Origin: Eubacteriales bacterium
Lineage (GTDB): Bacteria; Bacillota; Clostridia; Lachnospirales; Lachnospiraceae
Length of the DNA stretch: 64,000 nucleotides
Direction of reading: 5' to 3'
Assembly (NCBI GenBank): GCA_030536575.1
Contig: JAUNPS010000015.1
Location: 31,594 to 95,593, forward strand
A program made the position numbers and the translations under genes. Position 1 is the first letter of the stretch, and each line of letters begins with the position of its first letter. Below are positions 59,089-64,000 of this stretch, one piece after another. The notes beneath the pieces were generated by a model that made no database searches, was not told where the DNA came from, and saw only the letters and a list, made by a program, of their open reading frames with translations.

Positions 59089-59126
59089 AGAAAAAAGAGC
59101 CTCGCGCGCGCAAGACTCTTTTTTGG
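59089..59126 (-). terminator. Terminator of the cold-shock gene
   Basis: AAAAGAGTCTTGCGC / GCGAGGCTCTTTT-type stem with T runs on both strands, just beyond the csp stop. Confidence 0.75.
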
Positions 59127-61795: not shown

Positions 61796-62068
61796 TTAGG
61801 AGGGGGAGTGCCAGTAGCGGTTTATGTATTTTTGGGCTTCTTTTTGGGATAGGGAGAATTTGGTCATGAGTTTGGCGGTGGATTCTTCTTTTGAGTAGCC
61901 GAGTTCTTGTAAGGTTTCAACCAATACTTTTATGCTTTTGGTGATTCCGCGCAGGAAACCTTTTTTAATACCCAGTTCCTCGCCCAGTTTTATGCCTTCT
62001 TCTTTACCCAGCGTCATGCCTTCTTTTATGCCGTCGTCATAAATAGATTGAATAATTTTAAGTGCCAT
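61796..62068 (-). CDS. Orphan C-terminal cassette A of an Rpn-like gene
   Basis: 90 residues beginning MALKIIQSIYDDGIKEG and ending KFSLSQKEAQKYINRYWHSP. It is homologous to the last ~86 residues of the intact gene at 62580-63515 and nearly identical to cassette D (63687-63983). The ATG has an ideal AAGGAGG site (62074-62080) five bases upstream. A Gly/Glu/Lys repeat (TLGKEEGIKLGEELG) is followed by a compact helical end. Inferred: a free-standing antitoxin-like protein; not proven. Confidence 0.6.
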   Translation of the reverse strand: MALKIIQSIYDDGIKEGMTLGKEEGIKLGEELGIKKGFLRGITKSIKVLVETLQELGYSKEESTAKLMTKFSLSQKEAQKYINRYWHSPS

Positions 62069-62245
62069 AATTTCCTCCTTAATTCTTTTTGAAAATTTGT
62101 TATCCAGGATTTTGTCAGTGAAGGTTAAAATTCCGGCGAGAGCGGAAATCTGCTGCTTTTCGTCGGTTAGAGCTTTGGCCAGGCGGATGGCTTTCTTGGC
62201 CATTTCCTGTTTGGGCTGGGAGCCTTTTTCGGTGAGAGTAGGAGG
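62069..62245 (-). pseudogene. Truncated middle segment of an Rpn-like gene upstream of cassette A
   Basis: Reads in frame with cassette A as GSQPKQEMAKKAIRLAKALT ... ILDNKFSKRIKEEI, matching residues ~169-225 of the intact gene. Homology stops near 62245 and the N-terminal nuclease half is missing; the frame then runs into the tail of cassette B. Confidence 0.65.
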
Positions 62246-62303
62246 CTCAAAAGTTATGAAGGATGTGACGTCTTGGAGGTAAGATCGGGATTCCAGTAAC
62301 AGT

Positions 62304-62489
62304 TTATATATTTTTTGCCTCTTTCCGGGAAAAAGAGAATTTGAACATGAGTTTGGCAGTGGATTCTTCTTTTGAGTAGCCGGATTCCTGTAAAGTTTCA
62401 ACCAACACTTTTATGCATTGGGTGATTCCTTGCAGTATGCCTTCTTCTTTACCGTCGTCATAAATAGATTGAATAATTTTGAGCGTCAT
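62304..62489 (-). CDS. Orphan C-terminal cassette B of an Rpn-like gene (frameshifted end)
   Basis: 61 residues starting MTLKIIQSIYDDGKEEGILQ with the same AAGGAGG site as the other cassettes. The variable Gly/Glu repeat is short. A one-base deletion near 62320 changes the usual KKYINRYW ending to a stop after KEAKNI. Upstream homology ends within ~30 bp of the start codon, so the cassette kept its ribosome site but lost the rest of the gene. Confidence 0.5.
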   Translation of the reverse strand: MTLKIIQSIYDDGKEEGILQGITQCIKVLVETLQESGYSKEESTAKLMFKFSFSRKEAKNI

Positions 62490-62579
62490 AATTTCCTCCT
62501 TAATTTTTTCATAGCCTCTCGGAATTTCTAAGTCTTATAGAAGAGCGGCCTCAGAGCAAGGATGAAACCGCCTGGAAGA

Positions 62580-62840
62580 TTAAGAAAGATGAGTTGTCTT
62601 AGAGTTTGTAGTTGAGTCCCAATAACGGTTTATATATTTTTTAGCATCTTTTTGAGATAAGGAAAATTTGCTCATGACTTTCAGAGTGGATTCTTCTTTT
62701 GAGTAGCCGGATTCTTGTAAAGTTTCGATGAGGGCTTTTGTGCCCTGTGCGATTCCTTGCAAAAGACCCTGCTTCCGACCAAATTTCATGCCTTCTTCTT
62801 TACCGTCGTCATAAATAGATTGAATAATTTTGAGTGTCAT
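62580..62840 (-). CDS. Internal in-frame ORF: C-terminal product of the Rpn-like gene
   Basis: Codon 226 is ATG, preceded inside the frame by the codons for IKEEI, whose DNA is ATTAAGGAGGAAATT, a perfect Shine-Dalgarno with 5-nt spacing. The product would be 86 residues: MTLKIIQSIYDDGKEEGMKF ... YINRYWDS. Known Rpn genes of E. coli make a short C-terminal antitoxin from an internal start; the same is inferred here. Confidence 0.55.
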   Translation of the reverse strand: MTLKIIQSIYDDGKEEGMKFGRKQGLLQGIAQGTKALIETLQESGYSKEESTLKVMSKFSLSQKDAKKYINRYWDSTTNSKTTHLS

Positions 62841-63515
62841 AATTTCCTCCTTAATTCTTCTTGAAAATTTGTTGTCCAGGATCTTGTCAGTGAAGGTTAA
62901 AATTCCGGCGAGAGCGGAAATCTGCTGCTTTTCGTCGGTTAGAGCTTTGGCCAGGCGGATGGCTTTCTTGGCCATTTCCTGTTTGGGCTCGGAGCCTTTT
63001 ACGGTGAGGGGGAGGATGATCAGTTCCAGCATTTCTGAATTTGTCAATAATTCTCCCTTATGAACTTTTGATGCAATGCGGCCATAAATTTCCTGTGTAG
63101 AAAGATTGCGCAGGAAGGCGGACTCAATGAACAGTTTCATGCATCCGAAATCGAAAACGGCGGAGCGGGTCTGGGATATGTCAGCCGAATAAATAACAAT
63201 AAGGTGGAGCTTTGGCATGTCACCGGAGTGTTCAGCGACGTATTTTTTCAGGATGCGCGCAATGTAGTTTATGTATTTGATAATGTCGTGTTTTGAAAAG
63301 GTGCTTTCGTAGTCGATGATCGCGAGGGAGTCGTCTTCGAGCAGGAATAAGTGGTCGAGGCGGAGCTCATTGGCCTCGATCGCTGGCAGGTTCGTAGGGA
63401 GTGCGTCGCAAATCCGGATGTGCGGGAGGCCAAAAGGAGCGAGGGTTTGGTTTTTCAGGGTATCGGTCACGAACTTCAGGGTAATATCGTGGTTTTGGTA
63501 AGCAATGTCGCTCAA
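62580..63515 (-). CDS. Rpn-like PD-(D/E)XK nuclease-family protein, intact copy
   Basis: 311 residues. N-terminal domain with LRLDHLFLLEDDSLAIIDYE (candidate active site D54 and D68-x-E70) and KYINYIARILKKYVAEH, as in PD-(D/E)XK transposase-like/Rpn proteins. The C-terminal third has AKKAIRLAKALTDEKQQISA and a Gly-rich repeat. It starts with TTG at 63515, with AAAGGAG upstream and promoter TTGTTT-17-TATAAT (63533-63561). An internal AAGGAGG plus ATG at codon 226 could yield an 86-residue C-terminal product. The family is inferred from motifs. Confidence 0.65.
   Translation of the reverse strand: MSDIAYQNHDITLKFVTDTLKNQTLAPFGLPHIRICDALPTNLPAIEANELRLDHLFLLEDDSLAIIDYESTFSKHDIIKYINYIARILKKYVAEHSGDMPKLHLIVIYSADISQTRSAVFDFGCMKLFIESAFLRNLSTQEIYGRIASKVHKGELLTNSEMLELIILPLTVKGSEPKQEMAKKAIRLAKALTDEKQQISALAGILTFTDKILDNKFSRRIKEEIMTLKIIQSIYDDGKEEGMKFGRKQGLLQGIAQGTKALIETLQESGYSKEESTLKVMSKFSLSQKDAKKYINRYWDSTTNSKTTHLS
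62846..62852 (-). promoter_or_regulatory. Intragenic Shine-Dalgarno of the Rpn-like gene
   Basis: AAGGAGG on the minus strand, 5 nt before internal ATG 62840. Identical sites precede the ATGs at 62068, 62489 and 63983. Confidence 0.7.
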
Positions 63516-63686
63516 GTGATGTTTCTCCTTTCATTATATAACAAAAAGATTGTAAAAACAATATAAAAATAAGCAAAAATAAATAAAACGAATAACAGGC
63601 GATACGCCAAAGATTATAATGAAATAGATTTGAATAAAAAGATATAGAAGAGCGGCCTCAGAGCAAGGATGAAGCCGCTTGGAAGG

Positions 63687-64000
63687 TCAAGAAAAATGAG
63701 ATGTCTTAGAGTTTGGAGTTGAGTCCCAATAACGGTTAATATATTTTTGAGCTTCTTTCTGGGATAAAGAAAATTTGGACATGAGTTTGGTAGTGGATTC
63801 TTCTTTTGAGCAGCCGAGTTCTTGTAAGGTTTCAACCAATACTTTTATGCTTTTGGTGATTCCGCGCAGGAAACCTTTTTTAATACCCAGTTCCTCGCCC
63901 AGTTTTATGCCTTCTTCTTTACCCAGCGTCATGCCTTCTTTTATGCCGTCGTCATAAATAGATTGAATAATTTTAAGTGCCATAATTTCCTCCTTAATTC
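63687..64000 (-). CDS. C-terminal part of another Rpn-like gene (cassette D), 5' end beyond window
   Basis: The frame is open to the window edge. The internal ATG at 63983 with AAGGAGG gives a 98-residue product MALKIIQSIYDDGIKEG ... YINRYWDSTPNSKTSHFS, almost identical to cassette A. Its downstream flank (from 63643) repeats the flank of the intact copy (from 62536), showing a ~1.1-kb tandem duplication. Whether the N-terminal nuclease half is present lies outside the window. Confidence 0.6.
   Translation of the reverse strand, partial: IKEEIMALKIIQSIYDDGIKEGMTLGKEEGIKLGEELGIKKGFLRGITKSIKVLVETLQELGCSKEESTTKLMSKFSLSQKEAQKYINRYWDSTPNSKTSHFS

Follow-up and report, generated by a model that had tools for sequence, protein, structure and literature searches.

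The window analysed here, 64,000 nucleotides from the genome of a gut-type bacterium of the Lachnospiraceae (Eubacteriales bacterium, assembly GCA_030536575.1, contig JAUNPS010000015.1, positions 31,594 to 95,593), closes with a minus-strand array of related genes. Its intact member encodes a 311-residue Rpn-like protein and carries, in the last codons of the nuclease-like half, a Shine-Dalgarno sequence (SD) and an in-frame ATG from which the C-terminal domain alone would be made. The full-length product is called L and the internal product S. Across a family of relatives the SD is kept even where the residues that it encodes have changed, and this comparative evidence for the internal start is strong; it points to a divergent variant of the Rpn type of gene-within-gene toxin/antitoxin. 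With a probability of roughly 0.7, L would be a nuclease held by the S made from the buried start, and the orphan copies of S downstream would have arisen by duplication and deletion. Evidence of selection for a gene within a gene usually comes from ribosome profiling of a single organism; here it is visible across a family. The Rpn-type internal antitoxin would thereby be extended to a divergent clade, the window member of which lies under every Pfam cut-off.

The features of the intact gene are as follows.

62580..63515, minus strand: the intact gene, starting with TTG and encoding the long form L of 311 aa; residues 1-225 are the PD-(D/E)XK-like nuclease half, followed by the C-terminal S domain
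62580..62840, minus strand: S as predicted for the intact gene, 86 aa counted from the internal ATG at 62840, with five 4-residue repeats
62841..62855, minus strand: internal ribosome site ATTAAGGAGGAAATT, within the codons IKEEI
62846-62853, minus strand: SD TAAGGAGG of the internal site, 5 nt before the ATG
63525..63538, minus strand: -10-like TATAAT (63533-63538) and, directly after it, the AAGGAG that serves the TTG start of L; the leader is short

The internal start and its conservation

The initial annotation, made from the letters of the window, had described a 311-residue gene with an SD buried in the codons for IKEEI, and the gene at 62580-63515 agrees with it. L begins at TTG with a weaker AAGGAG at 9 nt, and S at ATG with TAAGGAGG at 5 nt; since the start of S looks the stronger of the two, S is probably made in excess. 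The window ATG lies one codon further upstream, nearer the SD, than in most relatives and in the 54% identical relative on contig C26 of the same genome, at a spacing that is still workable. The candidate promoter of L has a poor -35 element and is missing from the promoter-scan list.

Relatives were sought by protein search (E <= 1e-10) in 397 genomes of the family, the source genome included, and matches were found in 40 of these; a first scan of the genome contigs with the single protein as query had given no match. An SD of at least 6 nt precedes the internal start in 40 of a first set of 41 full-length proteins, which includes those of the window and of the other copies in its genome. Synonymous shuffling of the eight codons before the start (1000 runs) yields a mean of 8.6 such sites and a maximum of 17, and the other in-frame ATGs of the same genes are preceded by one in 8 of 310 cases. 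A larger set, to which named loci from the best 80 of 183 relatives were added, holds 120 full-length proteins, or 93 once rows at least 90% identical are dropped. Here 88 of the 93 retain an SD of at least 6 nt, where 500 shuffle runs yield 19.8 on average and 32 at most and 20 of the 652 other in-frame ATGs have one; 58 retain an SD of at least 8 nt (5.8 on average and 13 at most in the shuffles; 1 of the 652 other ATGs). All 93 have a start codon within the ten-codon window, ATG in 92 and TTG in one, and AGGAG stands 6-13 nt before it in 84, with a spacing of 9-10 nt in 79 of the latter. The selection for the buried SD that had been claimed for the intact gene is thus found again in its relatives.

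The reading of these bases is not constant. The GGAG core is translated as Arg-Arg (once Arg-Ser) in 47 of the 93, in the Lys/Arg/Glu-Glu phase in 41 (one of which, probably L043, lacks a 6-nt SD) and in the third phase in one, and is absent from four; a quick tree, built on nuclease halves only, implies at least six switches between the two readings. In two Paraclostridium plasmid relatives (23-26% identity) the Met is replaced by Val, encoded by GTG, and AAGGAGG is retained, while in L029 the internal start is a TTG with TAAGGAG. Since the SD persists as the residues change, and GTG and TTG take the place of ATG, it is the start which is conserved and not the residue. A search of related genomes for conservation of the site under protein drift had been proposed as a check, and the 47 versus 41 readings answer it in favour of the site. 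The other three plasmid relatives have GGAGGT before the Met (Brevibacillus), TAAGGAG (a record labelled Streptomyces) and a weak site only (Aneurinibacillus).

Some points weigh on the other side. Five of the 93 relatives (L108, L110, L090, L116 and L043) lack a 6-nt SD, the sequences are related and their counts not independent, the tree is a quick one, and the two other genomes of the genus that were searched hold no copy. As judged from these comparisons, the internal start is nevertheless under DNA-level selection across a large family, far beyond what the protein sequence demands.

A viral or phage origin was rejected, as no relative was detected in the viral contigs or phage records at the sensitivity of the search. 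Plasmid mobility was rejected as well, 11 of 72,556 plasmid records matching, all at less than 60% identity. One of these, L201 (1489-2328, Aneurinibacillus plasmid NZ_CP116888.1), is a 32% relative annotated as a "transcriptional regulator" and probably misnamed. L204 (1594-2190, NZ_CP128848.1, labelled Streptomyces flavofungini) is a truncated relative with TAAGGAG before MT; it resembles the clostridial genes, and the Streptomyces label may deserve a check. In L152 (3343-4500) the nuclease frame stops just before S and an S-like frame goes on in another phase, the gene being split or frameshifted.

Protein family, motif and predicted fold

A match to TIGR01784 at E <= 0.01 is given by 21 of 39 relatives (best 1.3e-9). 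The C-terminal domain aligns with that of ordinary Lachnospiraceae Rpn proteins at an hhalign probability of 93% and with that of E. coli RpnA-C at 79%, the repetitive helix being included in both comparisons. PADLOC returns one weak model for the window protein, C3a178 "putative invertase" (E 0.0025, residues 218-272), and PHROGs nothing below 0.05. The nuclease half contains one conserved acidic stretch:

63306..63356, minus strand: putative active-site stretch D54-x13-D68-x-E70 (in relatives, D-x13-(D/E)-x-(E/Q))

D54, D68 and E70 are invariant in the 60 aligned rows of alignment A4. In the more diverse set A1, all of the 38 rows without a gap have D at position 54; 32 have D and 6 have E at position 68, while 36 have E and 2 have Q at position 70. 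Five distant relatives have the same 14-residue spacing with E-x-Q (four) or E-x-E (one), and ordinary Lachnospiraceae Rpn proteins retain D64, E78 and Q80 (D-x13-E-x-Q); through these forms the motif grades into the ordinary Rpn motif. We infer that D54, D68 and E70 are the residues of a PD-(D/E)XK motif.

The AlphaFold2 model has a pLDDT of 84.7 and a pTM of 0.70 at full length, and of 84.8 and 0.82 for the N-terminal half alone. The order of its elements (helix 2-20, strands 30-40, 55-59 and 64-70, helix 75-95, strand 103-109) gives an alpha-beta-beta-beta-alpha-beta arrangement in the N half, as expected for PD-(D/E)XK. Among the first 14 PDB matches of that half, 12 are chains of Card1, N.BspD6I, EcoO109I and BstEII, all of which we take to have the PD-(D/E)XK fold; the list for the full model is more mixed, with Card1 third, and the viral structure library gave nothing significant. 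A comparison of the predicted structure with PD-(D/E)XK nucleases had been suggested as a check, and it came out in part as hoped: such nucleases lead the matches of the N half, but none is individually significant (best E 0.014). On the model, a nuclease fold of the N-terminal half is likely.

Against this assignment, and against kinship with Rpn, several results have to be set. No Pfam model reaches its cut-off with the window protein (DUF2887 at E 0.06), and the score against TIGR01784 is 13.4 bits for a curated cut-off of 52.1, for which reason the protein is termed Rpn-like and not a member of Rpn. Compared alone, the profile of the nuclease half gives no significant match to the Rpn profiles. 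The C-terminal profile matches may partly reflect the composition of the repetitive helix, which also draws FliH models and a repeat chain (8vd6, E 1.8e-5), and the solved RpnA S chain 7th0 is matched at E 0.6 only. No structural match reaches E 0.001, the 0.014 quoted above belonging to Card1, and the query-normalised TM-scores of the N half do not exceed 0.28 among the matches listed.

Four other genes of the same genome (L155-L158, on contigs C8, C13, C64 and C47) exceed the TIGR01784 cut-off, and several L/S-type systems may coexist here. Among the ordinary Lachnospiraceae Rpn genes (L155-L191, 33 genes) many encode an internal Met behind a WRREY-like or KEEFE-like stretch; the GGAGG or AAGGAGG that closely precedes it is often weaker than in the window clade.

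The array and its orphan copies

The remaining members of the array are listed below.

63687..63998, minus strand: contig-end copy, comprising the last 5 codons before the internal ATG at 63983 and S (98 aa, eight repeats)
63651..63679, minus strand: terminator-like hairpin after the contig-end copy; a 61-nt segment folds at -15.9 kcal/mol
62304..62489, minus strand: orphan 2, SD, ATG and S with three repeats; a one-base deletion leaves 61 aa
62069..62236, minus strand: nuclease-half remnant before orphan 1, 56 codons equal to residues 170-225, SD included
61796..62068, minus strand: orphan 1, S of 90 aa with eight repeats in an open frame

In the direction of transcription the order is contig-end copy, intact gene, orphan 2, orphan 1. 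Four homologous copies of the C-terminal segment, all on the minus strand and each with an in-frame ATG behind the same bases, had been reported; the 15-mer ATTAAGGAGGAAATT is indeed present exactly four times on that strand (62069-62083, 62490-62504, 62841-62855 and 63984-63998), immediately followed by ATG at 62068, 62489, 62840 and 63983, all in-frame. Two further sites in the window resemble it with 3 mismatches each. As the four lie within longer homologous repeats, they represent a single inherited feature and should not be counted four times.

The window covers bases 31594-95593 of contig C6 in an assembly of 4.8 Mb and 100 contigs, and its base 64000 is the end of that contig. The copy that had been described as a gene cut by the window end is truncated, but by an assembly break: any nuclease half would fall past the contig end, and a second full-length copy, 95% identical, stands at the edge of contig C68. 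Because C6 and C68 both break inside repeats, the array may be longer, or joined otherwise, than assembled. A C-terminal fragment with GxxxG repeats on contig C82 (L014, 4855-5085), 42% identical to the window tail, is likewise cut by a contig end.

Orphan 1 and the contig-end copy share their first 57 S codons without a difference; of the 30 that follow, 14 differ (10 synonymous, 4 not), a mosaic which suggests gene conversion. Orphan 1 is homologous to the intact gene, in frame, from 62236 (residue 170) onwards, which puts 168 nt of homology ahead of its ATG; this nuclease remnant differs from the intact gene by 2 synonymous and 3 non-synonymous codons. Orphan 2 lacks the last part of the S domain and, to judge from its frame, is probably decaying. 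The notion that both orphans are without a nuclease half and keep exactly the ribosome site and a small open reading frame has therefore to be amended: orphan 1 retains 56 nuclease codons, and orphan 2 is frameshifted. Before orphan 2 an 8-codon frame ATGAAAAAATTAAGGAGGAAATTATGA (62486-62512) runs across the SD, and its stop overlaps the start codon of S (ATGA); the arrangement may serve translational coupling or be due to chance.

The variable part of S is a 4-residue repeat, and the variation between cassettes that had been noticed there is one of repeat number: the intact gene has 5, orphan 1 has 8, orphan 2 has 3, the contig-end copy has 8 and, beyond the window, the C68 copy has 7. The main text of PMC10327210 reports that in E. 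coli RpnC the number of 4-residue repeats sets the specificity between L and S, one extra repeat having abolished inhibition. By this rule, and counting against a role of the orphans as spare antitoxins of the intact gene, its five repeats are found in neither of them, and neither orphan would inhibit its L. Orphan 1, with eight repeats, would fit the contig-end copy. The bank of spare or cross-reacting antitoxins that had been proposed is in this sense half supported in the window: orphan 1 is plausible as a spare S for a neighbouring copy, and orphan 2 is probably a fragment in decay.

How far the orphans matter at all is an even question. They could well be functionless debris of duplication and deletion, with the intragenic S the only one of consequence, and the nuclease remnant of orphan 1, the frameshift of orphan 2 and the departure of both from the repeat number of the intact gene agree with this, as do relatives in which the orphan has lost its SD (L137, L032) or shrunk to a short remnant (L092, L122). 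Set against it are the perfect SD and ATG of both window orphans, the open 90-aa frame of orphan 1 with its 57 codons shared with the contig-end copy, the open downstream S frames with SD of L058 and L038, and the expression of a separate downstream S gene in E. coli, that of RpnE (PMC10327210).

Among the relatives an S-like segment, in some cases weak, lies within 1.5 kb downstream in 10 of the 104 genes with at least 200 nt of downstream sequence (109 distinct main genes). A self-search of 112 S proteins places orphans next to their parent in five loci (L038, L058, L137, L032 and L092). L038 has two open downstream orphans, the first of which overlaps the parent stop (ATGA) and has a weak SD (GGAG). 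That of L058 is open, keeps its SD and has a tail unrelated to the parent's; the remnant in L092 is 9 residues long, and the one in L122 keeps its SD. Candidates in L109, L110, L146, L105, L043 and L115 were not counted, being upstream, further off, partial or on the opposite strand.

Where similar S proteins differ by a gap, its length is a multiple of 4 residues in 24 of 34 cases (the pairs overlap), the remainder being of 1, 11, 15, 21, 22 and 37 residues. In Schaedlerella arabinosiphila (L102) three full-length genes stand in tandem with nuclease halves 98-100% identical and repeat stretches of 5, 21 and 9 residues. A genome of another family of the same class (G478) has three tandem copies (L195/L197/L200), of which two encode one and the same protein of 307 aa and the third, at 311 aa, differs from it only by one additional GIEK unit. 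How L/S specificity diversifies, a question raised in PMC10327210, becomes testable with such material: the two arrays, with near-identical or identical nucleases that differ mainly in repeat number, are natural test cases, and L058, where an orphan tail of the old type lies beside a gene with a new one, is a further one.

Of the remaining features, a T-run follows a few bases past the hairpin at 63651-63679; the same hairpin recurs 3' of the intact gene (62544-62572) without a later T-run. The hairpin at 63651-63679 is not among the sites of a simple terminator scan, and in the promoter and terminator scans of the window, sites were not clearly commoner than in shuffles. An inverted repeat with two 17-nt arms, 88% complementary and without spacer, at 59091-59124, between a 799-aa gene and a convergent cold-shock-type gene, is likely an ordinary terminator. 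To judge from their translations, the neighbours in the window resemble a two-component pair, a protein of cold-shock type and an anaerobic ribonucleotide reductase, and are presumably not defence genes.

Tail exchange

In a few loci the sequence behind the internal start has been replaced. The nuclease halves nearest to that of L058 (68-72%; five entries, one cut by a contig end and two apparently the same gene) carry tails unlike its own, and its orphan has 62% identity with the S of another gene of the same genome, L054; the old tail of L058 was thus apparently displaced. L134 and L052 are 92-93% identical in the nuclease half and share the first 14 residues of S, beyond which their tails are unrelated, that of L134 finding its best foreign matches in L084, L095 and L024 at 33%. 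Around the internal ATG, six pairs have an ungapped DNA identity of 0.75-1.0 from -20 to +40 nt; it falls to background by +60 to +100 and is at that level after the stop as well. Differences in repeat number also lower this measure, and L137, which was dropped in the end, is a member of two of the six pairs.

A shuffle test on the last 38 residues found unrelated tails (z below 3) in 19 of 83 pairs whose nuclease halves are 75-99.5% identical, and all 19 involve L134, L083, L112/L127 or L114. Frequent tail swapping was rejected on this count, few loci being involved. L137 was dropped too: by global identity its tail had seemed unrelated to those of L153, L085 and L093, yet none of these pairs is among those with z below 3. 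On the alignments, then, tail exchange just after the internal start is real but rare.

We might go one step further, tentatively and with more doubt than confidence, and regard the SD, the ATG and the head of S as a recombination seam at which the tail would be replaced behind a constant nuclease half, the old tail, with a ribosome site of its own, staying as an orphan antitoxin for the earlier specificity, while arrays diversify by repeat number. A single genome would in this way come to possess several L/S pairs orthogonal to one another. In the main text of PMC10327210 the words "swap" and "exchange" are absent.

Proposed mechanism

L would be composed of an N-terminal nuclease of PD-(D/E)XK type and a helical domain at its C-terminus. 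The strong SD in the last codons of the nuclease half would start S, the C-terminal domain alone, probably in excess over L. S would pair with the identical domain of L via the helix of 4-residue repeats and block the nuclease until L is released by a trigger, for which phage infection is a plausible candidate. Tandem duplication and partial deletion would have produced the downstream orphans, of which orphan 1 could still yield an S that fits the eight-repeat contig-end copy and orphan 2 is probably decaying. The toxin with an internal antitoxin that the initial annotation proposed is upheld as far as the anatomy, which matches that of Rpn L and S, and the selected internal start are concerned; the repeat variation and the duplications can likewise be read from the sequence, a nuclease fold is likely, and for the window gene nuclease activity, inhibition by S and phage defence would follow from the Rpn precedent.

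That precedent, to which the annotation had also appealed, is in place. The main text of PMC10327210 describes E. coli Rpn genes in which S is made from an internal start, binds its L and blocks DNA cleavage by it (RpnA), and counters the toxicity or SOS induction caused by its own L; one plasmid-borne Rpn protects against some phages.

It is unlikely, by contrast, that S is a partner or assembly subunit of L. Helpers of this kind exist, for example Cas11d, the internal product of Cas10d (cited in PMC10327210), but in the closest studied system, of the same anatomy, S is inhibitory (PMC10327210). That S would have the same self-pairing domain as L speaks for a subunit. Least probable is a role of the buried AAGGAGG other than initiation, as a ribosome pause, for which its position at the domain boundary and the ability of SD-like sites inside genes to slow ribosomes might be quoted, or as the relic of a fused two-gene operon: neither requires a start codon, and one lies within the ten-codon window in all 93 relatives, with AGGAG before it in 84 and TTG and GTG versions included; the SD, too, is kept through changes of the residues it encodes.

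Comparison with known systems

Polymorphic toxins (CDI, Rhs) have a constant N-terminal part and an exchangeable C-terminal part, and retain displaced older C-terminal parts downstream. The window clade resembles them in all three respects; unlike there, the exchanged part is here a probable antitoxin or pairing domain with its own internal start and not a toxic domain. A second parallel is offered by the Type I restriction enzymes EcoR124I/II, in which the number of TAEL repeats changes specificity (cited in PMC10327210). In both cases specificity is tied to the number of a 4-residue repeat, but in the restriction enzymes the repeats set the spacing of DNA recognition, whereas here they would set the pairing of L with S.

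The closest likeness is to RpnL/RpnS (YhgA-like; E. coli and C. difficile; TIGR01784, COG5464), as described in the main text of PMC10327210. These systems too have a nuclease-type N half and a small C-terminal domain, an SD and start at the domain boundary (often MT), a varying number of 4-residue repeats near the start of S, tandem arrays and separate downstream S genes. To this may be added the C-terminal profile match, repetitive helix included, and the comparable motifs, D-x13-(D/E)-x-(E/Q) here and D-x13-E-x-Q in Rpn. The window protein differs in a nuclease half too divergent for TIGR01784 or any Pfam cut-off, and its clade in having D-x-E where ordinary Rpn has E-x-Q. Beyond the Rpn precedent, sequence comparison points to a divergent Rpn-like clade, to arrays of near-identical nucleases that differ in repeat number, and to rare replacement of the tail.

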